DNA of 64,000 nt, taken from positions 3,348,001-3,412,000 of the forward strand of contig NZ_CP059556.1 in NCBI RefSeq assembly GCF_024734405.1, read 5' to 3'. The DNA is from Saccharopolyspora gregorii (GTDB taxonomy: Bacteria; Actinomycetota; Actinomycetes; Mycobacteriales; Pseudonocardiaceae). Each line of letters begins with the position of its first letter. The stretch's first letter is position 1. A model generated the notes under the pieces. That model saw only the letters and a list, made by a program, of their open reading frames with translations, searched no databases and was not told where the DNA came from. Below, one piece after another: positions 24,892 through 61,707 of the stretch. The position numbers were made by a program, and so were the translations under genes.

Positions 24892-25045
24892 GTCAGCGGC
24901 GCAGCCGCTGAACGGCGAGCACCAGAGCAAGCCGACCACCCGCGGGTTCTCAGCGGTTCCCTCGCGAGGACAGCGATTTCTCCTGTGGCGGAGCCACCGG
25001 TGACATCGATCCCGCAGCGAGGGGGCCGCTGAGGTTCCGCCACCC
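24892..25045 (+). repeat. nested-hairpin intergenic repeat, copy 1
   Basis: It begins with hairpin TCAGCGGC-GCA-GCCGCTGA, then arms CTCAGCGGTTCCCTCGC (24949-24965) and GCGAGGGGGCCGCTGAG (25017-25033), which pair over 17 nt with two U-G wobbles. The centre holds GTGGC-GGA-GCCAC at 24985-24997. It fills the gap between two same-direction dehydrogenase genes. Similar copies lie near 26.2, 42.3, 56.3 and 61.6 kb. Confidence 0.8.
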
Positions 25046-25082
25046 GAGCACCCGGCAGCAGAAGCGGGGAGAGGAAGGAAAA

Positions 25083-26198
25083 GTGCACTTCGCGTTCAGC
25101 GCGCAGCAGGAGGACCTCCGGCTGACCGTCCGCGCCCTGCTGGACCAGGACGGCGGCCCGCACGTGCCCGCGCCGCCACCGGCGCCCGCCCCGCTCGGGC
25201 ACGACCCGGAGCTGTGGCGGCGGCTCGGCGCGGAGATCGGCGCGGCCGGGCTCACCGTCCCCGAGGAGCACGGCGGCAGCGGCGCCACCCTCGTCGAGAG
25301 CTGCCTCGTCGCCGAGGAACTGGGCCGCAGGCTCGTGCCGTCCCCGTTCGTCGGCGGCACCGCGCTCGCCGTCGAAGCGCTGCTGACCGCGGGCGACTCG
25401 GCGGCCGCGGAACGGCTGCTGCCGGGTATCGCCGCCGCCGACCGGCTGGTGGCGCTCGCGTGGGCCGAACCGGAGAACTGGTGGCAGGACACGGGATTCG
25501 CCACCACCGCGCGGCTCGACGCGGGCACGTGGCGGCTGGACGGGCGCAAGAGCTTCGTGCTCGACGGCGCGCGGGCGGACGCGTTCCTGGTCGTCGCGAC
25601 CGCCCCGGACGGGCCCGCGCTGTTCGAGGCGGCGGCGGAGCCGGCAGCGGTGCTGCCGCACCCGGTCGTGGACCCGACCCGGCCGATGTGCGCGCTGGAG
25701 CTGTCCGCGGCGCCGGCCGCGCCGATCGGGCCGGCCGGGCCGGTGCTGGCGCGCTGCCGGGACGCGGCGGCGGTGCTGCTGGCGGCCGAGTGCGTGGGCG
25801 CCGCGGACCGGTGGCTCGGCGAGATCGTCGGCTACGTGCAGACCCGGGTGCAGTTCGGCAGGCCGATCGGCTCGTTCCAGGCGATCAAGCACCGGCTCGC
25901 CGACCTCTACGTGGCGGTGGAGTCGGCGCGCTCGCTGTCGTACGCGGCGAGCTGGGCGGTCGGCACCCGCGACGAGCGCGGGTCCGCGTGGGCGGCGATG
26001 GCCAAGTCGCTGTGCTGCGAGACCTACCAGGACGTGGCGGCCGAGGGCATCCAGCTGCACGGCGGCCTCGGGATCACCTGGGAGCACGAGGCGCACCTGC
26101 ACCTGAAACGAGCCCACGGCGCCGCGCACCTCTTCGGCACCCCCCGCAGCCACCGCCGCCGCCTCGAAGCGCTCCACCACCGCATCGCGGGCCCGTGA
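25083..26198 (+). CDS. acyl-CoA dehydrogenase family protein
   Basis: A 371-residue acyl-CoA dehydrogenase. Family marks are AAGLTVPEEHGGSGATL near residue 60, QTRVQFGRPIGSFQAIKHRLADLY near 255 and GIQLHGGLGITWEHEAHLHLKR near 322. The middle domain is weakly conserved (WAEPENWWQDT instead of the usual SEP-GSDLA), suggesting a partner subunit rather than a stand-alone enzyme. It could be the FadE33/IpdE2 equivalent, but sequence alone does not settle it. The GTG at 25083 follows AGGAAGG. It lies beyond the repeat copy 1, so it may be transcribed separately from fadE31-fadE32, and it converges with mce4F. Confidence 0.8.
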   Translation: MHFAFSAQQEDLRLTVRALLDQDGGPHVPAPPPAPAPLGHDPELWRRLGAEIGAAGLTVPEEHGGSGATLVESCLVAEELGRRLVPSPFVGGTALAVEALLTAGDSAAAERLLPGIAAADRLVALAWAEPENWWQDTGFATTARLDAGTWRLDGRKSFVLDGARADAFLVVATAPDGPALFEAAAEPAAVLPHPVVDPTRPMCALELSAAPAAPIGPAGPVLARCRDAAAVLLAAECVGAADRWLGEIVGYVQTRVQFGRPIGSFQAIKHRLADLYVAVESARSLSYAASWAVGTRDERGSAWAAMAKSLCCETYQDVAAEGIQLHGGLGITWEHEAHLHLKRAHGAAHLFGTPRSHRRRLEALHHRIAGP

Positions 26199-26219
26199 AC
26201 CCGCCCGGCAGGTCGTGCC

Positions 26220-26260
26220 GTTCTCCTGCCGGCGGCGGAGCCGCCGGGGTTCCGCCACCC
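26220..26260. repeat. nested-hairpin repeat, degenerate copy 2, probable terminator
   Basis: CCGGCGGC-GGA-GCCGCCGG (26229-26247) is flanked by GTTCTC and GGTTCCGCCACCC, the same borders as the larger repeats but with the central part deleted. It lies between convergent genes and would serve as a bidirectional terminator. Confidence 0.6.
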
Positions 26261-26280
26261 GGGTGCCACCGACAAGCTCA

Positions 26281-27447
26281 TCACCGCGGAGGCAGCGGGA
26301 GGGGCGGGGCGGTGGCCGGCACCGGGACCGCGTCGGGAACGGGGGCGCGGGGAACGTTGGCGGAGCCGCGGACGTTGGTGGGGCCGTCCGGCGGTTCGGC
26401 GCACCGGATGTCCGGGTTCGCCGGGATCGGCGTGATGTCGTCGCCGGGGCGGCGTTCGGTTCCCTCGTAGCCCTTCTCGCAGGCCAGCGGGTTGAAGAAG
26501 TTGAGCACCACGCCCAGGTGCCCGCGCCCGTCGCCGTCCTGCGCGCTGTGGCTGGCGGCCGACATCATCGGCATCGCCACCAGCACGTTCTCCAGCGCCG
26601 GGCCGCGGACGTCGAGCAGCCGCGCGGTGGTGAGCAGGTTCGCGGTGGTCGCGGCGAGACCGGTGCCGCTGTCGCGCAGCAGGCCGTCGAGCTGTTCGGC
26701 GGCCGGCGGGGCGACGTCGGCGAGCCGCCGCAGGTCCGGGTCGGAGGCGCGCAGCTGTTCGGCGACCTGGCGCAGGCCGCGGCTGAACTCGATGATCTGC
26801 CCGGATTGCTGCTGCTGGGTGCGCAGCACCACGTCGGAGTTCGCCAGCAGCGCGGTGGTGCTCGGCAGGTTGCGGTCGGCGGCGGCGATGAGCGATCCGG
26901 TGCTGTCCAGCATCCGCTGCAGGTGCGGCCCGGTGCCCTGCAGCGCGGTGCCGGATTCCTCGACGACGGTGCGCAGCGCGTCCAGCGGCACGTCCGCGAC
27001 GAGCCGGTCCAGGTTCAGCAGCAGCGATTCCGGCGGGGGTGGCAGTTCGGCGCGCTCGGCGGGGATCACCGACCCGTCCCGCAGCACCGGTCCGTGCTCG
27101 TCGTCGGGCCGCAGGTCGAGGTACTGCTCCCCCACCGCCGAGCGGTTCGCCGCCGCCGCGCGCGCGTCCGCGGGGATCGGCGGGGCGGCGGAGTCGATGT
27201 GCAGGTCCAGCGCCGCTCCGCGGTCGGTGAGCCGCACCCCGGTGACCCGCCCGACGGCCACTCCCCGGTAGGTGACCTCCGAGTTGGTGAACACCCCACC
27301 GGTGTCGGGCACCTCCACCACGACGGCGTAGCCGCCCGCCCCGACCAACCGGTCCAGTCCCGCGTAGCGGGCGCCGGTGAACCCGATGCCGACGACGGCG
27401 ATGAGCAGGAACAGCCCCAGCCGGATCGTCGTGGCCCTGCTGAACAT
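26281..27447 (-). CDS. mce4F: Mce4F, sterol-import MCE protein
   Basis: A 388-residue MCE-family protein. An N-terminal membrane anchor (TTIRLGLFLLIAVVGIGF, residues 6-23) precedes the MCE domain (about 38-115: VEVPDTGGVFTNSEVTYRGVAVGRV), a long alpha-helical region, and a Pro-rich tail ending APPLPLPPR. MCE subunits assemble into a hexameric periplasm-spanning tunnel that carries sterol to the YrbE permease. It is last in the yrbE4A-mce4F order and its start shares one base with the mce4E stop. No mas4-type genes follow; the next gene is a convergent dehydrogenase. Confidence 0.92.
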   Translation of the reverse strand: MFSRATTIRLGLFLLIAVVGIGFTGARYAGLDRLVGAGGYAVVVEVPDTGGVFTNSEVTYRGVAVGRVTGVRLTDRGAALDLHIDSAAPPIPADARAAAANRSAVGEQYLDLRPDDEHGPVLRDGSVIPAERAELPPPPESLLLNLDRLVADVPLDALRTVVEESGTALQGTGPHLQRMLDSTGSLIAAADRNLPSTTALLANSDVVLRTQQQQSGQIIEFSRGLRQVAEQLRASDPDLRRLADVAPPAAEQLDGLLRDSGTGLAATTANLLTTARLLDVRGPALENVLVAMPMMSAASHSAQDGDGRGHLGVVLNFFNPLACEKGYEGTERRPGDDITPIPANPDIRCAEPPDGPTNVRGSANVPRAPVPDAVPVPATAPPLPLPPR

Positions 27448-28499
27448 CACGGCCCCCCGAGCGGTAGCGGTGCGCCCGAGTCGGAGATCCCGGGCAGCGG
27501 CAACAGCGGCCCGCTGCTGTTCGACAGGTTGCCGAGGACGCTGGTCAGGTCCAGGTCGAGGTCCACGTCGACGTTCACGAAATCGCCCTTGAGCGGGACC
27601 ATCGCGTTCTCCGGGAACGGGTAGCTGGCCAGGTAGCCGATGGCCTTCGGCAGGTCGGTGCCCGCCTTCGCGAGTTCGCGCAGCGTCGGCGCGAGCGCGT
27701 CGAGGTCGGCGACCAGGTCGTCCCGGCTCGCGTCGGCCGTGCGCACCGCGACCTGGGAGAACCGGTCGAGGGCCCGCAGCATTCGCACCAGGTCGCCGCG
27801 CTGCCGCTCCAGGACGCGCAGTCCGGGTTCGAGCCCGTCCAGGCCGGTGGTGAGGTCGTCGAGCTGTCCGCGCAGGTCGGCGGAGAGCCGGTTCAGCCCG
27901 TCGAGCGCGCGGGTGATGTCCTGCTTCTGCTCGTCCAGCCGGGACACCGCTTCGTCCACTCGGGACAGCAGCGAGCGCACCTGCGGTTCGTTGCCGCCGA
28001 GCGCGCGGTCCAGTTCCTCGACGATGCCGTTGAGCTGCGCGACGCCGCCGCCGTTGAGCAGCAGGGACAGCGCGCCGAGCACCTCTTCGACCTGCGGGTT
28101 GCGGTCGGTGCGCTCCAGCGGGATCTCCGCGCCGTCGCGCAGCGGGCCGCCCGCGGGTTCGGCGGGCCGGGCGAGCTCGACGAACTTCTCCCCCAGCAGG
28201 CTGGATTGCCGCAGCCGCGCTTCGGCGTTGGCGGGCAGCCGCACGTCCCCGTTGACGACGAGCGTGACCACGGCGGTCGCGTTGTCGGGGGCGAGCCCGA
28301 TGCCGCGGACCTTCCCGACCGGCACGTCGTCCACCTTCACCCCGGCTTGCGGCACCAGGTCGAGGACGTCGGCGAACCGCACCCGCACCTCGTACGGGTG
28401 GTCGCCGAGGTCGGCGCCGCCGGGCAGCGGCGCGTCCTGCACCGAGGCGCCGCACCCGGTGACCAGCAGCAGCGCGCAGCAGCCGAGCGCCCGGCGCAT
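27447..28499 (-). CDS. mce4E: Mce4E lipoprotein of the sterol importer (LprN-like)
   Basis: A 350-residue MCE protein with a lipoprotein signal: MRRALGCCALLLVTGC, giving lipobox LVTGC with Cys16 as the likely lipidated residue. The MCE domain spans about 37-115 (VRVRFADVLDLVPQAGVKVDDVPVGKV) and is followed by coiled helices. Position five and the lipobox identify the E subunit, called LprN in M. tuberculosis. The C-terminus ends SDSGAPLPLGGP, resembling the tail of Mce4D. Start and stop each share a base with the neighbouring mce genes. Confidence 0.93.
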   Translation of the reverse strand: MRRALGCCALLLVTGCGASVQDAPLPGGADLGDHPYEVRVRFADVLDLVPQAGVKVDDVPVGKVRGIGLAPDNATAVVTLVVNGDVRLPANAEARLRQSSLLGEKFVELARPAEPAGGPLRDGAEIPLERTDRNPQVEEVLGALSLLLNGGGVAQLNGIVEELDRALGGNEPQVRSLLSRVDEAVSRLDEQKQDITRALDGLNRLSADLRGQLDDLTTGLDGLEPGLRVLERQRGDLVRMLRALDRFSQVAVRTADASRDDLVADLDALAPTLRELAKAGTDLPKAIGYLASYPFPENAMVPLKGDFVNVDVDLDLDLTSVLGNLSNSSGPLLPLPGISDSGAPLPLGGP

Positions 28500-29650
28500 C
28501 ACGGGCCACCGAGGCCGAGCGGCAGCGGCGGGAGCTCCCCGCGGGAGAGGTGGTCCACCGCTTCCCCGGGCGAGGGCAGCGGGACGGCACCGTCGAGCAC
28601 CCCGGCCAGCCCCGCGCAGGTCCGCCCCAGCTCCGGCGGAACCTGCGCGGGCGCGGCGGATTCCAGCAGCTTGCACACCAACAGCACCGGCGGGAACGTC
28701 AGCTCGTTGATGTTGGCGCGGACCGCGACGGTGCCGGAGGCGGCGTCGTAGGCGTTGATGAAGTTGCTCATCCCGGTCGGGGCGATGTCGAGGACTTCGC
28801 CGAGCGTTTCCCGCTGCTCCACCAGCGCCCTGGTCACGTCGGCGAGCTGGTCCACGTTGGCGGTCACCGATTCCCGGTTGTCCCGCACGAACCCGTCGAG
28901 GTCGGTGAGCGCGGCCGTCAGCGAGCTCAGCGCGGCGGCGGTCTGCTGCCGCTCGTCGGCGAGGAACCCGGAGACGTCGGCGAGCCGGGTGTGGAAGTCC
29001 CGCACCTGCGCGTCGTTGGCGGCCAGCGTCGCGGTGAACTCGTTGAGGTGGTCGACGGTGGCGAACAGGTCGTCGTGCGAGCCGTCGAGGGTGGCCGACA
29101 GTTCGCCGAGCCGCCGCACCGTCTCGTTCAGCTTCGCCCCGTTGCCGTCGAGGTTCGCCGCGGCGGTGCCGAGCAGGTCCGACAGCGCCCCGTCCCGGTT
29201 GGCGCCGTCCGGCCCGAGGGCTTCGGTGAGCGCGTTGGCGCTGCGGTACAGGTCGTCGAGGTCGGCGGGGACCATCGTGCGGTCGGTGCCGAGCACCGCG
29301 CCGGGGGCCAGCTCCGGGCCGCCCTCGTAAGCGGGGGTGAGCTGCACGTACCGGTCGCTGACGAGGCTCGGGGCCACCACCACCGCGCCCGCCGCGGCGG
29401 GGACGCGGAGCTCGCGGTCCACGCTCAGCTCCACCCGCACCCGGCCGCCTTCGGGCCGCACCGAGGTGACGCGGCCGACCTCGACGCCCAGCACCCGCAC
29501 CGACGACTGCGGGTACAGGCCCACGGCCCGCTCGAAGTAGGCGGTGATGCGGGTGCCCGGGTCGCGCAGCACCCACCACAGCGCGCCGCTGAGCAGCAGC
29601 ACCAGCACGCAGCCGAAGGCGAGCAGCGCCGTCGCCGGTCTCCGGTTCAT
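28499..29650 (-). CDS. mce4D: Mce4D, sterol-import MCE protein
   Basis: A 383-residue MCE protein. Residues 5-27 (PATALLAFGCVLVLLLSGALWWV) form an uncleaved membrane anchor, and the MCE domain follows at about 32-110 (RITAYFERAVGLYPQSSVRVLGVEVGRV). A long helical region rich in DLDD and LTAALTDLDGF-type heptads builds the tunnel, and the tail ends ELPPLPLGLGGP. It overlaps mce4C by ATGA. Order within the operon and the anchor type place it as the D subunit. Confidence 0.92.
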   Translation of the reverse strand: MNRRPATALLAFGCVLVLLLSGALWWVLRDPGTRITAYFERAVGLYPQSSVRVLGVEVGRVTSVRPEGGRVRVELSVDRELRVPAAAGAVVVAPSLVSDRYVQLTPAYEGGPELAPGAVLGTDRTMVPADLDDLYRSANALTEALGPDGANRDGALSDLLGTAAANLDGNGAKLNETVRRLGELSATLDGSHDDLFATVDHLNEFTATLAANDAQVRDFHTRLADVSGFLADERQQTAAALSSLTAALTDLDGFVRDNRESVTANVDQLADVTRALVEQRETLGEVLDIAPTGMSNFINAYDAASGTVAVRANINELTFPPVLLVCKLLESAAPAQVPPELGRTCAGLAGVLDGAVPLPSPGEAVDHLSRGELPPLPLGLGGP

Positions 29651-30660
29651 CGTCCACCTCCGCGGAGGTCGCAGCCGTGCGGGTTGATCTGCAGCGGGCC
29701 GGCGTCCACGGTCGGCGGCACCAGCCCGCACAGGTAGCCGTCGAACCAGCGCCCGTTGCCGACGGTGTTGTTGAACCCGGTCACGTAGGGCCGCAGCGCG
29801 GCGATGGTGGCCGCCACCTGGTCCTGGTTGCGCTGCAGCATGGCGGTGACCTGCTGCAGCTCGCGCAGCGCCGGGTTCAGCCGCTGCTGGTTGTCGGCGA
29901 CGAGCCCGCGCAGCTGCGCGGAGACCTCCTGGGTGCCGCGCAGCAGCGAGCCGATGGCGTCGCGGCGGCGTTGGAGTTCGCCGAGCAGCAGGTTCCCGTC
30001 GCCGACGAGCCGGGCGACCTGCGCGTCGCGGTCGGCGGCGATGCCGCTGACGTCGGCGGCGTGGTGCAGCAGGTCGGCGAGCTGCTCGTCGCGGGAGGCG
30101 ATGGTGCGGGACAGGGCGGCGAGCCCGTCCACGGCGCCGCCGAGGTGCTGCTCCCCGCCGCGCAGGCTCTCGGACAGGACCTGGAAGCTGCGGGCGAGCT
30201 GGTCGGTGTCGACCCGGCCGGTGCTGCGGGCGACCTGGTCGAGGGCATCGGGGATGTCGAAGGGCACCTCGGTGCGGGCGTCGGGGATGGTGCGGTCCGG
30301 GTCCTGCGGGTGCGCGCCGCCGGGGCGCAGCGCCAGGTTCTTCGCGCCCAGCAAGGTCTTCAGCTGGATGGACACCGTGCTGCGGTCTCCGACGGGCACG
30401 TCCTCGACGCGGAACCGCACCAGCACCCTGTTCCCGTCGAGGCCCACCTCGGTGACCTCGCCGACGCGGACGCCGGCGACCTCCACGTCGTCGCCCGCGC
30501 CGAGCCCGGCGGATTCGGTGAACTGCGCCGAGTAGGTGGTGCCGCCGCCGAGCAGCGGCAGGTCGTTCGCGAAGAACGCCAGCAGCGTCACGGCGGTCAG
30601 CAGCCCGAGGGCGACGACGCCGACGGTGGCCTGGTCGCGGTCGCGCAGCGCGGTGCTCAT
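29647..30660 (-). CDS. mce4C: Mce4C, sterol-import MCE protein
   Basis: A 337-residue MCE protein with membrane anchor ATVGVVALGLLTAVTLLAFF (residues 11-30), MCE domain at about 42-120 (YSAQFTESAGLGAGDDVEVAGVRVGEV) and a helical C-terminal half. The C-terminus ends in two cysteines within GYLCGLVPPTVDAGPLQINPHGCDL, which may form a disulfide outside the membrane. It overlaps mce4B and mce4D by four bases each, so the six MCE proteins are probably made in fixed ratio. Confidence 0.92.
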   Translation of the reverse strand: MSTALRDRDQATVGVVALGLLTAVTLLAFFANDLPLLGGGTTYSAQFTESAGLGAGDDVEVAGVRVGEVTEVGLDGNRVLVRFRVEDVPVGDRSTVSIQLKTLLGAKNLALRPGGAHPQDPDRTIPDARTEVPFDIPDALDQVARSTGRVDTDQLARSFQVLSESLRGGEQHLGGAVDGLAALSRTIASRDEQLADLLHHAADVSGIAADRDAQVARLVGDGNLLLGELQRRRDAIGSLLRGTQEVSAQLRGLVADNQQRLNPALRELQQVTAMLQRNQDQVAATIAALRPYVTGFNNTVGNGRWFDGYLCGLVPPTVDAGPLQINPHGCDLRGGGR

Positions 30661-34673: not shown

Positions 34674-34829
34674 GGCGACTCCCCGCCCGCGCGGCGGCAC
34701 CGCACCACTTCGACGCCCATCGCTGCACCACCTCGTCGTCGCGCTCGCGCCGGGTCCGGCCCGCGGCGGCGCCGCGGGCGACCTGCTCGGTCCCCGCCGG
34801 TGCCCGACCCGGCGGGCCCGGCGGCGGGG

Positions 34830-35579: not shown

Positions 35580-35580
35580 C

Positions 35581-37133: not shown

Positions 37134-38033
37134 CTAGCCCAGCGACAGCAGGTCGTCGCTGGTGAACATGCCGCCCGCGCGGTCGGCGAAGTGGCCGCCG
37201 ACGGCCCGGTGCAGCTCCTCGGTGGTCCAGGTGGGTCCGGCGGCGTCGAAGCGGCGCTCGATCGTCGGCGGGGCCATCAGCGCCACCTTCCCGCCGTGCA
37301 CCACGAACACCTGGCCGTTGACGGCGCCGGCGGCCGGGGCCGCCAGGTAGGCGACGAACGGTGCGACGTGCTCGGTGGACAGCGGGTCCACGCCGTCGTC
37401 CGGCGCCGGGCCGAAGACGTCCTCGGTCATGGCGGTGCGGGCGCGCGGGCAGATCGCGTTGGCGCGCACTCCGTAGCGGGCGGTGGCGCGGGCGGTGGAG
37501 ACGGTGAGCGCGGCGATCCCGGCCTTCGCGGCCGCGTAGTTCGGCTGGCCGCCGGACCCGAGCAGGAACGCCTCGGAAGCGGTGTTCACGATCCGGGCGC
37601 CGACCTCGGCGCCGGTCTCCTTGCACAGCCGGCGCCAGTGCGCGGTGGCGGCCCGGGTGAGCAGGAAGTGGCCGCGCAGGTGCACCCGGACCACCTCGTC
37701 CCAGTCCTGGTCGGACATGCCGAACACCATCCGGTCGCGCAGCACGCCCGCGTTGTTCACCACCACGTGCAGGCCGCCGAAGTGCTCCAGCGCGGCGGCC
37801 AGCAGCCCGTCCGCGGTGTCCCGCTCGGCCACGTCGCCGCGCACCGCGACGGCCCGGCCGCCCGCTTTGGTGATCTCGGCGGCGACGTCGTCGGCGGCGG
37901 CGGAGACGTCGTTGAGCACGAGGCTCGCCCCCGCTCCGGCGAGCGCGAGCGCCTCGGCCCGGCCGAGCCCGGCGCCCGCGCCGGTGACCACGGCGACCCG
38001 CCCGTCCAGCCGCAGCTCCGGACTCTGCTCCAC
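37134..38033 (-). CDS. hsd4A: Hsd4A-like 17-beta-hydroxysteroid / hydroxyacyl-CoA dehydrogenase
   Basis: A 299-residue SDR resembling Rv3502c (Hsd4A), which lies immediately before yrbE4A in M. tuberculosis. Motifs: TGAGAGLGRAEALALAGAG near residue 17, NNAGVLRDRMVF near 93, and YAAAKAGIAALTV near 167. It also keeps the extended C-terminus (ERRFDAAGPTWTTEELH). Hsd4A acts in side-chain beta-oxidation as a hydroxyacyl-CoA dehydrogenase with 17-beta-hydroxysteroid activity. It is followed at 44 bp by the aldehyde dehydrogenase gene. A 16-bp tandem repeat lies in its upstream gap. Confidence 0.88.
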   Translation of the reverse strand: MEQSPELRLDGRVAVVTGAGAGLGRAEALALAGAGASLVLNDVSAAADDVAAEITKAGGRAVAVRGDVAERDTADGLLAAALEHFGGLHVVVNNAGVLRDRMVFGMSDQDWDEVVRVHLRGHFLLTRAATAHWRRLCKETGAEVGARIVNTASEAFLLGSGGQPNYAAAKAGIAALTVSTARATARYGVRANAICPRARTAMTEDVFGPAPDDGVDPLSTEHVAPFVAYLAAPAAGAVNGQVFVVHGGKVALMAPPTIERRFDAAGPTWTTEELHRAVGGHFADRAGGMFTSDDLLSLG

Positions 38034-38122
38034 AGTGGACTCCTCAGGTCGGATGCTCCGGTGATCGGTGGCCGGGCCGCTCGGTGGCGAAACCGGTCAG
38101 TGGCCCGGCAGATCAGTGGCTC

Positions 38123-38231
38123 AGCCGGTCGGTCGCCCGGCCGGTCGGCGGCCCGGCCGGTCGGCGGCCCGGCCGGTCGGCGGCCCGGCCGGTCGGCGGC
38201 CCGGCCGGTCGGCGGCCCGGCCGGTCGGCGG
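38123..38231. repeat. 16-bp tandem repeat between adh and hsd4A
   Basis: Five exact copies of GGCCGGTCGGCGGCCC (38139-38218), a 13-bp partial copy (38219-38231) and one diverged copy upstream (38123-38138). It ends two bases before the alcohol dehydrogenase stop codon. The unit length is not a multiple of three and lies outside coding sequence, so copy number could vary freely. Confidence 0.9.
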
Positions 38232-38232: not shown

Positions 38233-39321
38233 CTAGTCGAAGGTGACGATCTGGCGCACCAGCGCGGCATCGCCGCCCTGCAGCGCGGCCAGCCCGTCGT
38301 TGATCTCGGACAGCGGCAGCCGCCTGCTGACCATGCCCTCCAGGTCGAGCAGCCCGGCGCGCCAGAACCGCAGCATCCGGTCGATGTCCCGGCGCGGGTC
38401 GGCCGAGCCGTAGAAGGACGGCAGGATCCTGCGCTCGTTGAGGAACAGCTCCTGCGCGGTGAACTCGACCTTCTGCTCCGCCCCGCCCGCGCCGACGATG
38501 ACGGTGCTGCCGCCGCGGCGGGTGGCGTCGTAGGCGGCGCGGATGGTGCCCGCCAGCCCCACGACCTCGATGGCGCAGTCGAACCCGGCGCCGCCGGTGA
38601 GCTCCTGCTTGAGCTCGTCGAAGCCGTCGGGGGTGGCGGTGTGCGTCGCGCCGAACCGGCGAGCCCCGGCGTGCTTGCCGACCACCGGGTCCACCGCGAC
38701 GATCGTGGTCGCCCCGGCCAGCCGCGCCCCCTGGACCACCGAGATCCCGACGCCGCCGCAGCCGATGACGGCGACGGTGGCGCCCGGTTCGATCCGGGCG
38801 GTGTTGAGCACCGCACCCACGCCGGTCAGCACCCCGCAGCCCAGCAGCGCGGCCACCTCGAACGGCACGTCCGGCTCGACCTTGATCGCCCCGGCGCGGG
38901 GCAGCACCAGCTCCTCGGCGAAGGTGCCGCAGCCGGCGAAGCCGAAGACCGGCTGGGAGCCGACCTCGAAGCGCGGCGAGGTGAACGCGGCGACGGTGTG
39001 CACCGCACACAGGTGCGGCTGGCCGTGCAGGCATTCCCGGCAGGTCCCGCAGGGCGGGACGAAGGTGATGGTGACGTGGTCGCCGGGCACCAGGTCGGTC
39101 ACCTGGTCGCCGACGGCGAGCACTTCCCCCGCGCCTTCGTGGCCCATCACGCCGGGGGCGAGCGCGGGAAGCGTGCCGTTCATCGCGGACAGGTCGCTGT
39201 GGCAGATGCCGGCCGCGCGGATCCGCACGTGCACTTCACCTGGCCCGGGAGCCACCACGGCCGCGTCCGCGCGGACGTGGAGCCGGTCGTCGCCGATCTG
39301 ATCGAGCACCGCTGCTTCCAC
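38233..39321 (-). CDS. zinc-dependent alcohol dehydrogenase
   Basis: A 362-residue medium-chain dehydrogenase. The catalytic zinc ligands are visible in AAGICHSD (Cys38) and VMGHEGAG; the structural-zinc lobe is CGTCRECLHGQPHLC (C-x2-C-x2-C-x7-C) near 90-104; the nucleotide fold has AVIGCGGVGISVVQGARLAG near 195. It resembles class III / NDMA-dependent-type alcohol dehydrogenases. Position between fdxD and hsd4A suggests oxidation of a sterol or side-chain alcohol, paired with the nearby aldehyde dehydrogenase. GTG start; a KstR-type box lies 61 bp upstream, giving this gene its own promoter. Confidence 0.88.
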   Translation of the reverse strand: MEAAVLDQIGDDRLHVRADAAVVAPGPGEVHVRIRAAGICHSDLSAMNGTLPALAPGVMGHEGAGEVLAVGDQVTDLVPGDHVTITFVPPCGTCRECLHGQPHLCAVHTVAAFTSPRFEVGSQPVFGFAGCGTFAEELVLPRAGAIKVEPDVPFEVAALLGCGVLTGVGAVLNTARIEPGATVAVIGCGGVGISVVQGARLAGATTIVAVDPVVGKHAGARRFGATHTATPDGFDELKQELTGGAGFDCAIEVVGLAGTIRAAYDATRRGGSTVIVGAGGAEQKVEFTAQELFLNERRILPSFYGSADPRRDIDRMLRFWRAGLLDLEGMVSRRLPLSEINDGLAALQGGDAALVRQIVTFD

Positions 39322-42260: not shown

Positions 42261-42494
42261 CCACTCGTGTTGCGTAGCGCCCACTGGGCCTTGCCGTTTT
42301 CTTGTCAGCGGCGAAGCCGCTGAGCAGCGACCACCAGAGCAACAAGACCACCCGCGGGTTCTCAGCGGCTTCCTCGCGAGGACAGCGATTTCGCCGTGTG
42401 TTTGACATACATCAGAAATCGCGGCCACACCGAAAAGCGGGCAGCGAGGAAGCCGCTGAGGTTCCGCCACCCCAGTGCTACGCAACACAAGTGG
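42261..42494 (+). repeat. nested-hairpin intergenic repeat, copy 3, with outer inverted repeats
   Basis: Outer arms at 42261-42278 and 42477-42494 pair at 17 of 18 positions. Inside are TCAGCGGC-GAA-GCCGCTGA (42305-42323), the 17-bp perfect arms CTCAGCGGCTTCCTCGC (42361-42377) / GCGAGGAAGCCGCTGAG (42444-42460), and the inner stem GCGATTTC (42385) / GAAATCGC (42415). The loop GTGTGTTTGACATACATC recurs almost unchanged in copy 5. Confidence 0.85.
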
Positions 42495-48832: not shown

Positions 48833-48853
48833 GAACCGTCCGGACGGGTGCGG

Positions 48854-50415: not shown

Positions 50416-50429
50416 TAGAACGCGTTTCA
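50416..50429. promoter_or_regulatory. KstR-type operator upstream of the acyl-CoA synthetase gene
   Basis: TAGAACGCGTTTCA matches TNNAACNNGTTNNA at all fixed positions. It overlaps the last codon of the upstream F420-type oxidoreductase gene, giving the synthetase its own promoter inside the tandem pair. Confidence 0.78.
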
Positions 50430-51491: not shown

Positions 51492-51568
51492 GGCGGGCCT
51501 CCTCGCGTCGGGGTGCGGCCGGGTGGCCGCGGGTGTCCCCATCGTGCGCCGAGCATTGCCGCCTTGGC

Positions 51569-51582
51569 GAGAACATGTTTCA
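51569..51582. promoter_or_regulatory. KstR-type operator upstream of the DUF35-ltp4-ltp3 operon
   Basis: GAGAACATGTTTCA matches TNNAACNNGTTNNA except the first base. It ends 9 bp before the GTG of the DUF35 gene and 78 bp from the divergent F420-type gene. Confidence 0.7.
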
Positions 51583-51591
51583 CTTCATCGC

Positions 51592-52614: not shown

Positions 52615-52639
52615 CCGCCCGCCGGCGTTGGGAGCGCGC

Positions 52640-55742: not shown

Positions 55743-56203
55743 GCGGCCCGGAGGCGACGAGGCGCGGTTCGGTGCGGTGGGACGCGACGGAGGCGGAGCA
55801 CCCGGCGCGGCGGGCGGCGCGGGCCTCGATGGCGGCGGTGGCGCGCGGCGCGAAGGCGGATTGGCTGGCGCTGTTCGCCGCGGACGCGCTGGTGCAGGAC
55901 CCGGTCGGCCCGTCCCCGCTGGACCCGTCCGGGCAGGGACATCGGGGCACGGCGGCGATCGGCGCGTTCTGGGACTCGGTGATCGCGGGGGCGGCGAGCC
56001 TGCACTTCCACGTGCACGACTCGTTCGCCGCCGGCTCGGAGGTCGCCAACACCGGCCGCATCCGCACCCACCTCCCCGACGGCGCGACGATGGACGCCGA
56101 CGGCGTCTTCCTCTACCGCGTGGACGACAGCGGTCTGCTCATCTCGATGCGAGCCTTCTGGGAATTCGACCGAGCAATGGCAACCCTCACCCCGAACCCC
56201 TGA
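55739..56203 (+). CDS. NTF2/SnoaL-like (ketosteroid isomerase fold) protein
   Basis: A 154-residue cone-fold protein of the NTF2-like superfamily. ADWLALFAADALVQDPVGPSPLDPSGQGHRGTAAIGAFWDSVI (about 39-82) is the typical helix and pocket entrance, followed by strands carrying HFHVHDSFAAG and MDADGVFLYRVDDSGLL. Such proteins isomerise ketosteroids, act as hydratases or simply bind ligands; the catalytic residues of classical ketosteroid isomerase are not assured here. Last gene of the DUF35-ltp4-ltp3-LLM operon; ATGA overlap with the previous gene. Followed by repeat copy 4. Confidence 0.8.
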   Translation: MSGPEATRRGSVRWDATEAEHPARRAARASMAAVARGAKADWLALFAADALVQDPVGPSPLDPSGQGHRGTAAIGAFWDSVIAGAASLHFHVHDSFAAGSEVANTGRIRTHLPDGATMDADGVFLYRVDDSGLLISMRAFWEFDRAMATLTPNP

Positions 56204-56233
56204 ACCCCCCAACCGCCTCGCAGTCCATTGCCT

Positions 56234-56388
56234 GTCAGCGGCGCAGCCGCTGAGCCAACGACCACCAAAGCAACAAGACCACCCGCGGGTTCTCAGCGGG
56301 ATTCTCGCGAGGACAGCTTTTTCCCTCGTGGCGGAGCCACTTGGGAAAAAGATCCCGCAGCGAGAATCCCGCTGAGGTTCCGCCACCC
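56234..56388 (+). repeat. nested-hairpin intergenic repeat, copy 4
   Basis: Contains TCAGCGGC-GCA-GCCGCTGA (56235-56253), perfect 17-bp arms CTCAGCGGGATTCTCGC (56292-56308) / GCGAGAATCCCGCTGAG (56360-56376), inner CTTTTTCCC / GGGAAAAAG (56317 and 56343) and GTGGC-GGA-GCCAC at the tip. The arm sequence differs from copies 3 and 5 but both sides changed together. Lies between convergent genes. Confidence 0.85.
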
Positions 56389-56424
56389 GCCCCGCCCCGC
56401 AACAGAAGTGATGAGACAGCCGTT

Positions 56425-56832
56425 TCAGTCGAGGACTGCCGTTGCTTCTAGTTCTATGAGCATGTCCGGTTCTGCTAGGGCGGCCACCCCGATGCCGGTG
56501 AACGGGGGCAGCGCGGCCCCGCCCAGCTTCGCGCTCGCCCGCGCCCGCCCCGCCATGAACTGCTCGAACTTCTCCGGCGTCCAGTCCACCAGGTAGGCGG
56601 TCAGCTTCGCCACGTCCGCGAACGAGGCGCCCGCCGCCGCCAGCGCGGTGGCGACGTTGAGGTAGACCTGCTCGACCTGCGCGGCGACATCGCCCGTCCC
56701 GACCGGGTTCCCGTGCTCGTCGCGGGCGACCTGCCCGGCCACGAACACCAGCTTCGACCCGGTGGCGACCGACACCTGCCGGTACAGCTCGACCTCCGGC
56801 AGCCCGTCCGGGTTCACCAGCGTGATGGCCAT
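56425..56832 (-). CDS. RidA family protein
   Basis: A 135-residue RidA/YjgF/Rid-family protein. The core motifs are SKLVFVAGQVARDEHGNPVGTGDVAAQVEQVYLNVATAL (about 26-63) and a C-terminal IGVAALAEPDMLIELEATAVL. The conserved Arg of imine deaminases would be expected near position 105 in LGGAALPPFTGIGV, where I do not see it, so enamine/imine deaminase activity is uncertain. Divergent from the HxlR regulator gene, which likely controls it. No clear tie to sterol breakdown. ATG chosen at 56832 because the frame further upstream lacks similarity. Confidence 0.85.
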   Translation of the reverse strand: MAITLVNPDGLPEVELYRQVSVATGSKLVFVAGQVARDEHGNPVGTGDVAAQVEQVYLNVATALAAAGASFADVAKLTAYLVDWTPEKFEQFMAGRARASAKLGGAALPPFTGIGVAALAEPDMLIELEATAVLD

Positions 56833-56856
56833 CGTGCACCTCCGTGCTCTCTTGTG

Positions 56857-56916
56857 GTTACCGGGAAACCGTAGGAGAGTGCCGCGTGACGTGGAAGAAC
56901 GCACTTTTCCGTAACC
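56857..56916. promoter_or_regulatory. candidate HxlR operator in the ridA-hxlR divergent promoter
   Basis: GGTTACCGG near 56857 and CCGTAACC at 56909-56916 form an inverted pair about 45 bp apart within the 94-bp divergent gap. This is plausible as twin half-operators for the HxlR protein, but the motif is not established. Confidence 0.4.
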
Positions 56917-56926
56917 GAGGAACCTG

Positions 56927-57310
56927 ATGGGAACCGAGAACTTCACCAGCCCGCTCGGGGACGAGGCGGACCTGCGGCGCGCCGACTCGCTCGCGCGGGA
57001 GATCTTCACCGAGGTCGCCAACAAGTGGGCGTTCCTCATCATCGACCTGCTCGGAGAGGGCAGCCTGCGCTTCAGCGAGCTGCGCGGGCGGATCGACGGC
57101 ATCAGCCACAAGATGCTCACCCAGAACCTGCGGATGCTGGAGCGCAACGGCCTGCTGGAACGCACCGTGCACCCGGTGGTGCCGCCGCGGGTGGACTACG
57201 AGCTCACCGAACCGGGGCGGGCGTTGCGGCAGGTGGTGCACGGGATGTGCGACTGGACCCACACCCACCTAGCGGCCATCGAAGCCGCCCGCCGGGGGTT
57301 CGGGGGATAG
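56927..57310 (+). CDS. HxlR-family transcriptional regulator
   Basis: A 127-residue winged-helix regulator. NKWAFLIIDLLGEGSLRFSELRGRIDGISHKMLTQNLRMLERNGLL (about 30-75) is the HxlR HTH, followed by the wing HPVVPPRVDYELTEPGRAL. HxlR proteins usually sense reactive aldehydes, quinones or redox state, sometimes by a cysteine; the only Cys here is in HGMCDWTHTH. Divergent from the ridA-like gene and convergent with cyp125 (24-bp gap). ATG at 56927. Confidence 0.88.
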   Translation: MGTENFTSPLGDEADLRRADSLAREIFTEVANKWAFLIIDLLGEGSLRFSELRGRIDGISHKMLTQNLRMLERNGLLERTVHPVVPPRVDYELTEPGRALRQVVHGMCDWTHTHLAAIEAARRGFGG

Positions 57311-57334
57311 CTGGTTCGTCTGCGGCGGGGTGGG

Positions 57335-58561
57335 TCAGCGGTAGCGGACTTGGAGTTCCTTGATGCCGTTGAGCCAGCCGGAGCGCAGGCGGCGGGGTTC
57401 GCCGGCCTTGGCGATGCCGGGCATCCGGTCGGCGATGGCCTGGAAGATGAGGTCGATCTCCAGCCGGGCCAGGTTCGCCCCGAGGCAGTAGTGCGCGCCG
57501 GTGCCGCCGAACCCGACGTGCGGGTTGGGGTCGCGGGTGATGTCGAAGCGCTCCGGTTCGTCGAAGACCTCGGGGTCGAAGTTGGCGGAGCTGTAGAACA
57601 TCGCGACCCGCTCGCCGCGCCCGATCGCCACCCCGTTCAGCTCGGTGTCGGCGAGCGCGGTGCGCTGGAAGGACATCACCGGGGTCGCCCAGCGCACGAT
57701 CTCGTCGGCGGTGGTGGCGGGGCGCTGCTCCTTGAACAGCTCCCACTGCTCGGGGTGGTCGAGCATGGCGAGCATGCCGTGGGTGATGGCGTTGCGGGTG
57801 GTCTCGTTGCCCGCGACCGCGAGCAGCAGCACGAAGAAGCCGAACTCGTCGTCGCTGAGCGCGTGCCCGTCCACGTCGGCCTGCACGAGCTTGGTGACGA
57901 TGTCGTCCATCGGGCAGCCGCGGCGCTGCTCGGCCATGCCCATGCTGTAGCCGAGCAGTTCGGTGGCGGCGGCGGCCGGGTCGATGGAGTACTCGGGGTC
58001 GTCGTAGGCGATCATCTGGTTGGACCAGTCGAAGATGTTCTTGCGGTGCTCCTGCGGCACACCGAGCAGTTCGGCGATGGCCTGCAGCGGGAGTTCGCAG
58101 GCGACGTCGGTGACGAAGTCGCCGGTGCTGCCGGTGAACGCGGTCTCGACGATGCGTTCGGCGCGTTCCCGCAGCGCGTCGCGGAGGCCGTTGATGGCGC
58201 GCGGGGTGAAGCCGCGGGCGACGATGCCGCGCAGCTTGGTGTGCTCGGGCGGGTCCATGTTGAGCAGGATCAACCGCTGCATCTCGATCTGCTCGCGGTT
58301 CATCTCGGAGGTGAAGCGGGTGATCGCGGTGTTCTCCCAGGAGGAGTACACGTCGCTGCGGCGCGAGACCTCCTTGACCTCGGCGTGCCTGCTCACCACC
58401 CAGTAGCCCTCGTCGTCGTAGCCGGCCTTGCCGCGGGGCAGCGGGTTCCACCACACCGGTGCGGTGCGCCGGAGTTCGGCGAACTCGCGCATGGGCAGCC
58501 GTTCGGCGTAGAGGTCGGGGTCGGTGAAGTCGAAGCCGGGCGGGATGTGGGGGCAGACCAC
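57335..58561 (-). CDS. cyp125: cytochrome P450 CYP125, sterol C26/C27 hydroxylase
   Basis: A 408-residue P450 whose sequence follows CYP125 throughout: CPHIPPGFDFTDPDLYAERLP at the N-terminus, I-helix LLAVAGNETTRNAITHGM near 240, ExxR in DEIVRWATPVMSFQRTAL near 285 and heme loop HVGFGGTGAHYCLGANLARLE near 348. CYP125 oxidises the terminal methyl group of cholesterol or cholestenone, starting side-chain degradation. The GTG at 58561 has a perfect AGGAGG site; upstream in-frame codons lie in the promoter. Divergent from fadA5 with two KstR-type boxes between, as in M. tuberculosis, but detached from fadE28. Confidence 0.96.
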   Translation of the reverse strand: MVCPHIPPGFDFTDPDLYAERLPMREFAELRRTAPVWWNPLPRGKAGYDDEGYWVVSRHAEVKEVSRRSDVYSSWENTAITRFTSEMNREQIEMQRLILLNMDPPEHTKLRGIVARGFTPRAINGLRDALRERAERIVETAFTGSTGDFVTDVACELPLQAIAELLGVPQEHRKNIFDWSNQMIAYDDPEYSIDPAAAATELLGYSMGMAEQRRGCPMDDIVTKLVQADVDGHALSDDEFGFFVLLLAVAGNETTRNAITHGMLAMLDHPEQWELFKEQRPATTADEIVRWATPVMSFQRTALADTELNGVAIGRGERVAMFYSSANFDPEVFDEPERFDITRDPNPHVGFGGTGAHYCLGANLARLEIDLIFQAIADRMPGIAKAGEPRRLRSGWLNGIKELQVRYR

Positions 58562-58604
58562 TGGCAACCTCCTGCGGGCCGCACGGAGACACGAGTCCAC
58601 GAAA

Positions 58605-58618
58605 GAGAACTTGTTCTA
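58605..58618. promoter_or_regulatory. KstR-type operator proximal to cyp125
   Basis: GAGAACTTGTTCTA (minus strand TAGAACAAGTTCTC) matches TNNAACNNGTTNNA except one terminal base. It is 44 bp upstream of the cyp125 GTG. Confidence 0.75.
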
Positions 58619-58651
58619 TGTGAACCGAACCACATCCGATCTGGTTAGTAA

Positions 58652-59935
<1,284 letters not shown>

Positions 59936-59939
59936 GGCC

Positions 59940-61523
59940 GTGGACGTCCCGGAGACGGTGCCCGCCGCCCTCGACCTCGCCGCCGAGCGGTTCGCCGAGC
60001 GCTCCGCCGTCGTCGACCCGGTGCTGCGGCTGACCTTCCGGGAGCTGCGCGAGCAGGTCCGCGAGCTGGCGGGTTTCCTGCTCGCCGAAGGCGTCCGGGC
60101 CGGGGACCGGGTGGCGCTGAACTCGCCGAACACCGGGCACTGGGTGGTGGCGGCGCTGGCCGCGCTGCACGTGGGCGCGGTGCTGGTGCCGATCAACACC
60201 CGGTTCACCCCGGCCGAGACCCGCGACGTGCTGGTGCGCAGCTCGGCGAGCGCACTGGTGGTGGCCGACACCTTCCTCGGGCGGGACCGGCTGCGGGAGC
60301 TGCGCGCGCAGGGAGGTGAGCCGACCGGCACCCCGGTGCCCGGCCTGCCCGCGCTGCGCACGGTCCTGCGCATCCCGGTGGAGGGCGCCGCGGCACCGCT
60401 GCCGCGCTGCGCGGACTGGGCCGAGGCCGGTGGCCGCTCGCTCCCGGCCGACCGGGTGGACGAGGCCGCCGCCCGGGTGCGCGGCACCGATCCCAGCGAC
60501 CTGCTCTACACCTCCGGGACCACCGGGCGCAGCAAGGGCGTGCTCAGCGCGCACCGCCAGGCCCTCGCCGTCGCCGACGCGTGGGCGACCTGCGGGCGCG
60601 TCGACGAGGCGGACCGGTACCTGGTGGTGAACCCGTTCTTCCACAGCTTCGGCTACAAGGCGGGCATCCTGGTGTGCCTGCTGCGCGGGGCGGCGATCGT
60701 GCCGGTGCCGGTGTTCGACACCCGCGCGGTGCTGGAACTGGTGCACCGCGAGCGGATCACCGTGCTGCCCGGGCCGCCCACCGTCTACCAGTCCATCTTG
60801 GACGATCCGGCGCGCGCCGAGCACGACCTCTCCAGCCTGCGGCTGGCCGTCACCGGTGCGGCCTCGGTGCCGCGGGTGCTGGTGGAGCGGATGCAGCGGG
60901 AGCTCAGCTTCGACACCGTGCTCACCGCCTACGGACTGACCGAGGCCGTGGTCGCGACCATGTGCCGCCCGGAGGACGACGACGCGGTGGTCGCCACCAC
61001 CTGCGGGCGCCCCACCGCCGGCTTCGAACTGCGCATCGCGGGCGCCGACGGCCGCCCCCTGCCCACCGGCGAGGTCGGCGAGGTGCTGCTGCGCGGCCCG
61101 AACACGATGCTCGGCTACCGGGACGAACCGGCGCAGACCCGCGCCGCCGTCGACGCGGACGGCTGGCTGCACACCGGCGACCTCGGCCGGGTGGACCGCG
61201 CGGGCAGGCTCACCATCACCGACCGGCTCAAGGACATGTACGTCTGCGGCGGGTTCAACGTGTACCCGGCCGAGGTCGAGCAGGCGATCGCGCGGCTGCC
61301 CGGCGTAACCGAGACCGCGGTGGTCGGCGTGCCCGATGCCCGCCTCGGCGAGGTCGGGAAGGCCTACGTGGTCGCCGCCCCCGGCCACCGGCTCACCGCC
61401 GACGAGGTCCTGGCCCACTGCCGCGAGCACCTCGCCAACTTCAAGCTCCCCCGCCACGTCGAGTTCCGCGCCGCACTCCCCCGCACCCCCACCGGCAAGG
61501 TCCGCAAACCCGACCTGCGGTGA
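59940..61523 (+). CDS. fadD3: HIP-CoA synthetase FadD3
   Basis: A 527-residue acyl-CoA ligase that follows M. tuberculosis FadD3 along its length: SPNTGHWVVAALAALHVGAVLVPINTRF near 60, LLYTSGTTGRSKGVLSAHRQ near 185, VNPFFHSFGYKAGILVCLLRGA near 228, TAYGLTEAVVATMCRPEDDDAV near 325 and KDMYVCGGFNVYPAEVEQ near 432. FadD3 activates HIP, the C/D-ring propionate, starting ring C/D degradation. In M. tuberculosis it belongs to the KstR2 group beside fadE31; here it follows fadA5 by 4 bp and would be read from a KstR-type promoter. Ends at repeat copy 5. Confidence 0.92.
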   Translation: MDVPETVPAALDLAAERFAERSAVVDPVLRLTFRELREQVRELAGFLLAEGVRAGDRVALNSPNTGHWVVAALAALHVGAVLVPINTRFTPAETRDVLVRSSASALVVADTFLGRDRLRELRAQGGEPTGTPVPGLPALRTVLRIPVEGAAAPLPRCADWAEAGGRSLPADRVDEAAARVRGTDPSDLLYTSGTTGRSKGVLSAHRQALAVADAWATCGRVDEADRYLVVNPFFHSFGYKAGILVCLLRGAAIVPVPVFDTRAVLELVHRERITVLPGPPTVYQSILDDPARAEHDLSSLRLAVTGAASVPRVLVERMQRELSFDTVLTAYGLTEAVVATMCRPEDDDAVVATTCGRPTAGFELRIAGADGRPLPTGEVGEVLLRGPNTMLGYRDEPAQTRAAVDADGWLHTGDLGRVDRAGRLTITDRLKDMYVCGGFNVYPAEVEQAIARLPGVTETAVVGVPDARLGEVGKAYVVAAPGHRLTADEVLAHCREHLANFKLPRHVEFRAALPRTPTGKVRKPDLR

Positions 61524-61551
61524 CTCACTGCCTGTTCTGCCGCGTAGGGCT

Positions 61552-61707
61552 CGGGTAGCGGAACCTCAGCGGCTTCCTCGCTGCGGGATCGATGTCTGAT
61601 GTATGTCCAACACACGGCGACATCGCTGTCCTCGCGAGGAAGCCGCTGAGAACCCGCGGCGGTGCCGGCTGCTCGGGTGGTCGCTGCTCAGCGGCTTCGC
61701 CGCTGAC
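61552..61707 (-). repeat. nested-hairpin intergenic repeat, copy 5 (reverse orientation)
   Basis: Arms CTCAGCGGCTTCCTCGC (61565-61581) and GCGAGGAAGCCGCTGAG (61634-61650) pair perfectly. The inner stem is CGATGTC (61590) / GACATCG (61619), the two-sided counterpart of CGATTTC/GAAATCG in copy 3, and TCAGCGGC-TTC-GCCGCTGA lies at 61688-61706. It fills the gap between convergent fadD3 and a methyltransferase gene. Confidence 0.85.

Follow-up and report, generated by a model that had tools for sequence, protein, structure and literature searches.

A dispersed two-hairpin repeat of Saccharopolyspora gregorii and its relatives, apparently a mobile repeat family not described before

The stretch of Saccharopolyspora gregorii DNA analyzed here (64,000 nucleotides, hereafter the window) carries several copies of a short, non-coding repeat built from two hairpins, apparently a family of mobile repeats without earlier description. 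On the best reading of the evidence it is probably a non-autonomous palindromic mobile element, MITE/REP-like in kind, whose fold is maintained with the help of exchange between copies.

Copies in the window and element architecture

The original prediction described four full intergenic copies and a degenerate one. Covariance-model matches recover these in the window as four full copies with a ~155-nt core and one remnant, and all of the full copies (4/4) lie between genes predicted by our own gene caller, which is the source of all window gene positions:

24889-25043, + strand: copy 1, core element (model positions 1-155; covariance model R1, 170.4 bits; in alignment A1)
24892..24911, + strand: copy 1, 5′ hairpin P2, GTCAGCGGCGCAGCCGCTGA (sequence; consensus structure)
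24942..25040, + strand: copy 1, long hairpin P3 (sequence, consensus structure, covariance model R1)
26225-26284, + strand: remnant copy without the long hairpin (covariance model R1, 24.6 bits, E 2e-4; repeat family D14)
42301-42470, + strand: copy 2, core element, the 3′ side of the hairpin being longer (covariance model R1, 134.1 bits)
42354..42467, + strand: copy 2, long hairpin P3 (sequence; covariance model R1)
56231-56386, + strand: copy 3, core element, between convergent genes (covariance model R1, 180.6 bits; gene calls)
56285..56383, + strand: copy 3, long hairpin P3, variable segment GGGATT with its exact complement (sequence; covariance model R1)
61555-61710, − strand: copy 4, core element, between convergent genes (covariance model R1, 165.1 bits; gene calls)
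61558..61657, − strand: copy 4, long hairpin P3, variable segment GGCTTC with its exact complement (sequence; covariance model R1)

Reverse strands of the same palindromes aside, the next covariance-model match in the window has an E-value of 0.056. A chance origin of the window copies is excluded: the stem pattern occurs 33 times in the window, where shuffles give 13.2 ± 3.3, and 146 matches are found genome-wide. A known RNA family was also rejected, as the window has no Rfam match at gathering score and four loci from other genera give only weak hits (one of them lying over a hairpin, MIR820, scores 32 bits, its gathering score being 196).

A complete copy, estimated at ~230-245 bp, consists of terminal inverted repeats (clear in part of the copies only), the short hairpin P2, a linker, and the long hairpin P3; P3 in turn combines nearly invariant internal loops with a fast-changing, mostly paired stem segment. 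Terminal inverted repeats are visible by eye in copies of the type found in the congener G005 and are not evident in most copies of the host genome (G000). They differ by subfamily, viz., a TTTCAGAATGATTT type in G005 and a GCCTGTCTTYGAAC type in G017, a genome of a second genus, and in a few G000 copies; the latter motif has 33 matches in G017, 8 in G000, and 0 in controls. Duplex prediction finds complementary ends in the flanks of copy 2 (GTGTTGCGTAGCGC and GTGCTACGCAACAC). Outer-flank pairing specific to each copy is weak in G000 (10/104 in the top 5%), and it was accordingly rejected as a general further helix in this genome. No clear target-site duplication was seen at the junctions inspected, their flanks being too diverged or rearranged.

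Covariation of the long stem

The long-stem variants are as originally claimed: CTCAGCGGCTTCCTCGC occurs with its exact complement in both the 42.3 kb and the 61.6 kb copy, CTCAGCGGGATTCTCGC is likewise matched by its exact complement in the 56.3 kb copy, and the variable segment of the 24.9 kb copy contains two T:G wobbles. The covariation claimed for the inner stem holds for the 42.3 kb copy compared with the 61.6 kb copy, but the inner stem of the 24.9 kb copy has one T/C mismatch. Across 57 copies from nine genomes, 25 of the 44 pairs change on both sides, giving 276 double-change cells against 82 ± 10 in shuffles and at most 92 in slid controls; a set of 30 sequences gives 68 against 17.6. 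The 6-bp stem segment takes 35 different 5′-arm sequences in 113 copies and is perfectly self-complementary in 71 of these, with one mismatch in a further 29, while at site A four species have four different 6-bp segments, each self-complementary. A functional RNA fold is conventionally proved by covariation, whose presence here across genera supports the claim that the fold, and not just the sequence, is maintained. To take two-sided change as proof that structure is under selection was too strong: pair-preserving allele swaps occur between two near-identical genomes, several of them to alleles found in other copies, which suggests that part of the cause is exchange among copies or template switching within the palindrome.

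The two strands differ in their wobbles. At stem positions 8-10 of the G000 copies, GU outnumbers AC by 35 to 4 on the + strand, an asymmetry that fails in the outer (GU 6, AC 16) and inner (GU 8, AC 14) stem. The corresponding count in G017, obtained by subtraction, is 54 to 14 outside two fixed GU pairs, in copies that were selected by the + strand model and also contain 54 other mismatched cells. When folded as RNA, P3 alone (mean −67 kcal/mol) favors the + strand in 86 copies as against 26, whereas for P2, linker, and P3 together the other strand is more stable in 83 copies as against 29. The greater stability of the other strand over this longer unit, the restriction of the wobble asymmetry to positions 8-10 in G000, and the model-based selection and further mismatches of the G017 copies speak against the mobile reading.

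The allele swaps would also be expected if the repeat were a MITE of the ordinary kind, bounded by terminal inverted repeats and carried in double-stranded form by a DDE transposase, with an incidental fold and with arms matched by DNA processes (template switching, gene conversion) rather than by selection on a folded strand. We regard this as quite unlikely. The terminal motif shared by two genera favors it, and template switching is reported, in the part of PMC8794818 available to us, to create and maintain hairpins. Against it stand the near-invariance of the internal loops across genera, which extends conservation beyond the arms, and the asymmetry at positions 8-10, which strand-symmetric DNA processes do not predict; terminal repeats varying by subfamily are, moreover, odd for transposase-binding ends.

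Distribution, gene ends, and orientation

With a covariance model built from 30 copies, 146 matches were obtained among 150 candidates scored in the host genome, 150 of 150 in its congener G001, and 46 in G017. With 10 candidates scored per genome, the repeat is found in at least 77 of 297 genomes of the family and 15 of its 46 genera. Under strict filters and with few candidates scored, 31 of the 41 genomes of a first scan and 31 of the 46 genera of the family scan gave no match. The element is dispersed, and all but one of the parsed G000 copies (112/113) lie between predicted genes. One blastn query each against plasmid and phage collections gave no match. The repeat family is not described among the best-ranked matches of the literature searched, including the accessible parts of PMC3610266, PMC3827479, and PMC10969869, and the accessible part of PMC3469384 lacks the terms looked for.

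Across the genome, copies sit mostly at gene ends: the right end points towards a stop codon in 95 of the 112 intergenic G000 copies, at a median distance of 34-35 nt, and the same rule applies to 26 of 30 copies in G017. Convergent genes flank 66 of the 112 copies and divergent genes 5. In the window, the right end of copy 3 lies ~38 nt from the stop of a − strand gene ending at 56425 and that of copy 4 (61555) ~31 nt from the stop of a + strand gene ending at 61523, while the other two copies break the rule, their right ends facing the starts of + strand genes (at 25083 for copy 1). The stop adjoining the right end shows a small excess of TGA (85/87 against 225/252, p 0.014). That the element itself supplies the stop codon of its neighbor was mostly rejected, since protein tails are equal in 63 of 83 comparisons, which are not independent and in which orthologs called element-free by motif pattern may include remnants. 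In the remaining comparisons the element-free ortholog is longer in 18 and shorter in 2, and some proteins accordingly look shortened, most clearly G001_47 and G001_53; tail differences of at least 2 residues amount to 18%, against 14% of 1112 control pairs.

Orientation follows replication in 97 of 131 copies in G000, 102 of 150 in G001, and 43 of 46 in G017, the origin of the last being assumed; for G005, where the replication origin was not placed, only a best-fit split is available, which is uninformative. Gene orientation is insufficient to account for this bias as a by-product, as it persists within convergent gaps (45:21 in G000 and 16:1 in G017). The bias is what a chromosome-organization signal would display, i.e., a replication- or segregation-oriented site whose orientation is set by function, an explanation that we consider very improbable given the genomes and genera without a match in the filtered scans and positions that vary between congeners. 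Known oriented chromosome motifs are short, and the repeat is longer and more structured than these.

Occupancy and relation to known mobile elements

In a block of six genomes, 23 of the 24 comparable gaps lack the element in one or more of the other five genomes, and the covariance-model count finds no element at the orthologous site in 66 of 82 comparisons. This count replaced a first, pattern-based one (7/18 shared), which had missed diverged copies, and finds 11 of the 24 gaps to be common to none of the comparable genomes and 13 to be shared with at least one congener, i.e., less turnover than the pattern-based count implied. The 13 shared gaps are an observation against the mobile reading and lower our confidence in it slightly. 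Occupancy differs between genomes in the manner of an insertion polymorphism: between G004 and G005 (99.6% amino-acid identity), one element is present in one and absent from the other, one stands opposite 22 bp, and one lacks P3 alone, the loss having occurred between GGTTC direct repeats. When 36 loci of G001-G003 were compared by their flanks with G000, only 3 could be used, G000 having the element in one of them and lacking it in the other two. Because occupancy varies both across the comparable gaps and between near-identical genomes, the repeat is better read as mobile than as a conserved regulatory RNA.

The original prediction had left three options, namely a structured RNA, a specialized terminator or 3′ stabilizer, and a palindromic mobile repeat, of which the last is best supported by the copy number, the empty orthologous gaps, the patchy distribution, and the terminal inverted repeats of part of the copies. 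A terminator role is possible, in keeping with the location by stop codons and often between convergent genes. As a full explanation, a cis-acting 3′ RNA element, whose hairpin would end transcription from either side or protect the mRNA 3′ end and whose fold would be kept by host selection, seems unlikely to us. It would account for the ratio of convergent to divergent gaps, the near-constant distance from the stop in two genera, the very stable P3 fold, and the sites shared among congeners. However, genes often do without the repeat, as the 66 empty orthologous gaps indicate; a terminator needs neither the large, invariant internal loops nor the 5′ hairpin; and any wobbles in the variable segment are mostly G·U on the strand that is antisense to the closely spaced gene.

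For a mobile element, a trans-acting enzyme might recognize the folded + strand, on which the variable-segment wobbles are G·U, and only copies able to fold would then be propagated, with exchange between copies, and possibly also template switching in the palindrome, spreading new stem sequences as matched pairs. The observed location of copies behind stop codons would stem from insertion preference, tolerance, or both. Capture of a folded + strand from the lagging-strand template predicts the opposite orientation bias, which counts against the mobile reading, as do the failure to find a mobilizing gene or a target-site duplication, the restriction of clear terminal repeats to part of the copies, the two window copies that break the stop-codon rule, and the weak copy-specific pairing of the G000 flanks. 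Among the candidate enzymes, a Y1/RAYT transposase was rejected, as the Y1 domain (PF01797) has no match in G000-G003 (G017-G019 lay outside this search and the next); it does match in G004, G005, G010, G012, and G030. A reverse transcriptase (PF00078) was likewise rejected, being absent from five of six congeners (G000, G001, G003, G004, and G005) with a single match in G002.

Comparable systems share some of these features. REPs are numerous small palindromes that lie between genes, with an enrichment at 3′ ends and in convergent gaps, with genome-specific subfamilies and an imperfect single-strand fold, each being a single palindrome of ~20-40 nt with a conserved 5′ tetranucleotide. The repeat resembles REP/BIME elements, which RAYT (TnpA-REP) transposases mobilize, in its intergenic location, palindromy, placement at 3′ ends and in convergent gaps, genome subfamilies, and imperfect single-strand fold, but is several times longer, has two hairpins and, in some copies, terminal repeats, and lacks an accompanying Y1 domain in G000-G003. 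With bacterial MITEs (Correia/NEMIS, ERIC, RUP, SPRITE) it shares its size, non-coding intergenic nature, terminal inverted repeats in some copies, and present/absent differences; it departs from them in its subfamily-specific terminal repeats, fast-changing paired segment, cross-genus internal loops, and replication-related orientation. The inspected junctions, with their diverged or rearranged flanks, show no clear target-site duplication. Group IIC introns likewise insert behind gene ends with a replication orientation bias and conserve fold above sequence, but the repeat is far too short for one, five of the six congeneric genomes lack a reverse-transcriptase domain, and the window has no Rfam match at gathering score. 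P3 resembles integron attC sites in being a long, imperfect hairpin whose arms vary but stay self-complementary and whose unpaired positions are conserved, but its copies are dispersed rather than arranged in cassette arrays.

Tentatively, and with considerable doubt, the repeat may represent an undescribed class of mobile element that recognizes gene ends (the bases behind stop codons, preferably of leading-strand genes) and spreads as a folded single strand by means of an enzyme that belongs to neither the Y1/RAYT nor the reverse-transcriptase family; its stem 'alleles' would be continually swapped as matched pairs, such that covariation arises on strain time scales through DNA exchange together with selection on the fold of one strand. 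The placement behind stop codons and the replication-related orientation, strongest in G017, are unusual and point to a mobilizing machine. With well over 100 copies in each of at least two genomes (G000 and G001) and a presence in many relatives, the family offers a system for the study of repeat spread and paired-base change, in which two-sided changes visible between near-identical genomes could separate selection on the fold from template switching and gene conversion.

Core architecture and genomic distribution

Covariance-model matches confirm that the window carries four full copies of the repeat and one degenerate copy, as stated in the original prediction.

Copies of the hairpin repeat in the window (covariance-model matches)
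24889-25043, + strand, full copy 1
42301-42470, + strand, full copy 2
56231-56386, + strand, full copy 3
61555-61710, - strand, full copy 4
26225-26284, remnant

The core is ~155 nt long in the four full copies, all of which lie between predicted genes (gene positions throughout are predictions of a simple codon-usage gene caller written for this analysis). On the strand designated +, it begins with a short 5' hairpin, P2 (GTCAGCGGCGAAGCCGCTGA); a linker of ~30 nt then leads to the long hairpin P3, whose outer stem, GCGG-GTT-CTCAGC-(6 variable)-CTCGC, leads to an internal loop (GAGGACAG opposite ATCCCGCA) with an inner stem and apical hairpin beyond it. The stem sequences originally proposed are correct, save for a single inner-stem mismatch in the 24.9 kb copy. 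Some copies have another left module (..GACGTGGGCTATGTGCTTCGCACATACAGGCACGGC..) where the 5' hairpin normally stands (L217:17112-17515 and L215:2167-2497 of the congener G001, L222:6924-7199 of the congener G002; sites D and E); hence, the repeat seems to be modular.

Across the whole host genome (G000; a single contig of 6,344,421 bases with dnaA at base 880), a 30-copy covariance model scored 150 candidates and accepted 146 as matches at E ≤ 0.001, 131 of them >120 nt long; it also recovered matches in further genomes. The orientation count below is based on these 131 matches, and the sequence and context statistics for G000 on 113 motif-pattern copies from the window and 80 of 82 further regions. 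An inverted pair of copies, with <30 bp between them, occurs at G000:C1:4180263-4180600. In G001 all 150 candidates scored were matches, and only 6 of the 11 copies identified by the model in a 140-kb block could be placed among these, so its total exceeds 150. A first scan, considering at most the best 73 candidates per genome (a number reached by G000-G003 and G018), found matches in at least 10 of 41 genomes, including all six of the genus (G000 being one of these). The scan of the family, presumably Pseudonocardiaceae, found them in at least 77 of 297 genomes and at least 15 of 46 genera, these being lower bounds because strict filters were used and the best 10 candidates were scored per genome. 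One query each against the plasmid and phage collections returned zero matches.

Maintenance of the fold and its probable strand

Nine genomes (G000-G003, G005, G010, G017-G019) contributed 57 copies to an alignment made without regard to structure, in which 92.2% of the pairing cells are paired versus 80.4% in shuffles, and 25 of 44 pairs show two-sided changes. The cells with such changes number 276, as against 82 +/- 10 in shuffles and at most 92 with the structure slid by 1-3 columns; the 30-copy alignment gives 68 versus 17.6 in shuffles. Kinship among sequences can lift such counts above shuffles without structure, and the slid controls speak against this as the source of the excess. Covariation across the nine genomes supports the proposal that the folded structure is maintained.

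The 6-bp variable segment has 35 distinct 5'-arm sequences among the 113 G000 copies, with exact complementarity in 71, one mismatch in 29, and more in 13. At site A, which follows the same gene in each of G000-G003, the four elements have differing 6-bp segments, every one self-complementary, and the stretch from the stop codon to P3 is almost identical among G001-G003. The internal loops are almost invariant between genera, and, with a single exception, the cells of the GTT/GTT loop pair as G.U and U.G on the + strand. The apical pairs of the model are valid for some genera only, with about 32 of the 57 sequences unpaired in four apical columns; genera without this pairing have an apex of different sequence.

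At stem positions 8-10 in G000, + strand G.U wobbles outnumber A.C by 35 cells to 4, an excess absent from the rest of the outer stem (6 versus 16) and the inner stem (8 versus 14), indicating that the asymmetry is limited to the variable segment. G017, a genome of another genus (one contig, 8,212,805 bases), shows 54 G.U versus 14 A.C after subtraction of two fixed G.U pairs, and 54 other mismatched cells, in copies selected by the + strand model. As RNA, P3 by itself is more stable on the + strand in 86 copies versus 26, whereas P2, linker, and P3 together are more stable on the opposite strand in 83 versus 29. Wobbles and RNA folding offer moderate evidence that the + strand fold would be the one that counts.

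Placement at gene ends and occupancy among congeners

The right end (..GGTTCCGCCAC) faces the adjacent gene's stop codon in 95 of 112 intergenic G000 copies, at a median distance of 34-35 nt (half within about 29-38; 8 of the 95 at >60 nt). The gaps housing these 112 copies are convergent (66), tandem (41), or divergent (5). The stop-facing rule holds in 26 of 30 G017 copies; of the four copies in the window, those at 24.9 and 42.3 kb break it. In 63 of the 83 comparisons, the neighboring protein has an equal C-terminal tail whether or not the element is present, suggesting that the repeat mostly settles behind an already existing stop codon; in 18 of the remaining 20, the shorter protein adjoins the element. 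Separately, a G+C-rich unit of 16 bp (CCCGGCCGGTCGGCGG type) is repeated in tandem at 38040-38231 of the window, and the array fills the gap between predicted genes 37134-38033 and 38233-39309.

With the origin placed at about base 1 and the terminus halfway around the chromosome, 97 of the 131 full G000 copies share one fork-relative orientation (p 3e-8 versus one half and 9e-4 versus 60%, copies treated as independent), as do 102 of 150 in G001 and 43 of 46 in G017, with the origin assumed at the record start in both. Leading-strand genes near copies number 275 of 473 in G000 and 69 of 105 in G017. Convergent gaps, in which the effect of gene direction cancels out, are split 45:21 in G000 (p 0.004) and 16:1 in G017.

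Across a syntenic block compared in the six congeners (G000-G005; 120-140 kb apiece), 28 gaps are occupied after merging orthologs, and for 24 of them the two flanking genes also neighbor each other in one or more of the other genomes. Among the 24, 13 are common to at least one congener, 11 to none of the comparable genomes, and 23 are empty (without a model hit at E ≤ 0.001) in at least one congener. Empty gaps account for 66 of 82 comparisons: 32 of 48 inside G000-G003 and all 34 of the comparisons with G004 or G005. G001 gap 47 holds an element in G001 alone, the other five congeners being empty; its gap 53 is empty in four congeners and retains a remnant in G002.

Element ends, differences between close genomes, and the nature of the repeat

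Terminal inverted repeats are found in some copies, of an AGGAGTCCTTTCAGAATGATTT type in G005 (by inspection) and of a second type, GCCTGTCTTYGAAC, in G017 and, less often, G000 (33 motifs in G017, 8 in G000, and 0 in the control, one mismatch allowed). Among 27 GCCTGTCTTYGAAC end sites in the examined G017 loci, 17 have a predicted gene end within 60 nt; in 9, the stop lies outside the motif at a distance of exactly 2 nt. P3 is missing from several G017 sites (L322, L326, L328, L334, L335, and others), which may be deletion derivatives and some of which lie beside ordinary terminator-like hairpins. Target-site duplications were not apparent.

The near-identical genomes G004 and G005 agree to 99.6% at the protein level. 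Among 12 pairs of orthologous elements compared between them (L087/L247 matched on one flank only), 4 are without difference in core and surroundings and 5 differ in the apical hairpin, which yet stays paired, several having swapped to alleles present in other copies. Placeable single helix changes retain, by inspection, a standard or G.U pair on the + strand. At three additional junctions, the differences are a whole element in G004 absent from G005, with another length difference alongside; an element in one genome versus 22 bp in the other; and the loss from G005 of just P3, between direct GGTTC repeats (L280 of G005 versus L286 of G004). These differences fit exchange between copies. One report describes template switching in palindromes as creating and maintaining hairpins (PMC8794818), a possible second source of matched changes. 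Near a polymorphic copy, a stretch bounded by GTCTCGTAAC / GTTACGAGAC, present in G005 (L276 15569-16925) and absent in G004 (L287 9131-9760), looks by eye like an insertion sequence.

The open-licence papers searched held no description of this family among their best-ranked matches, and it may be in print elsewhere. Two domain searches, neither of which covered G017-G019, found no Y1 transposase domain in G000-G003 and no reverse-transcriptase domain in five of the six congeners. The repeat differs from RAYT-REP systems in two tested features, the Y1 transposase and the single short palindrome. The rival readings are a 3' RNA element of the host and a plain DDE-type MITE in which the structure would be incidental. 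The likeness to MITEs is one of behavior; it may or may not extend to three MITE features, namely terminal repeats in every copy, duplication of the target site, and a parental IS. In behavior the repeat is also like REP/BIME elements, and we lean toward its being a non-autonomous palindromic mobile repeat.
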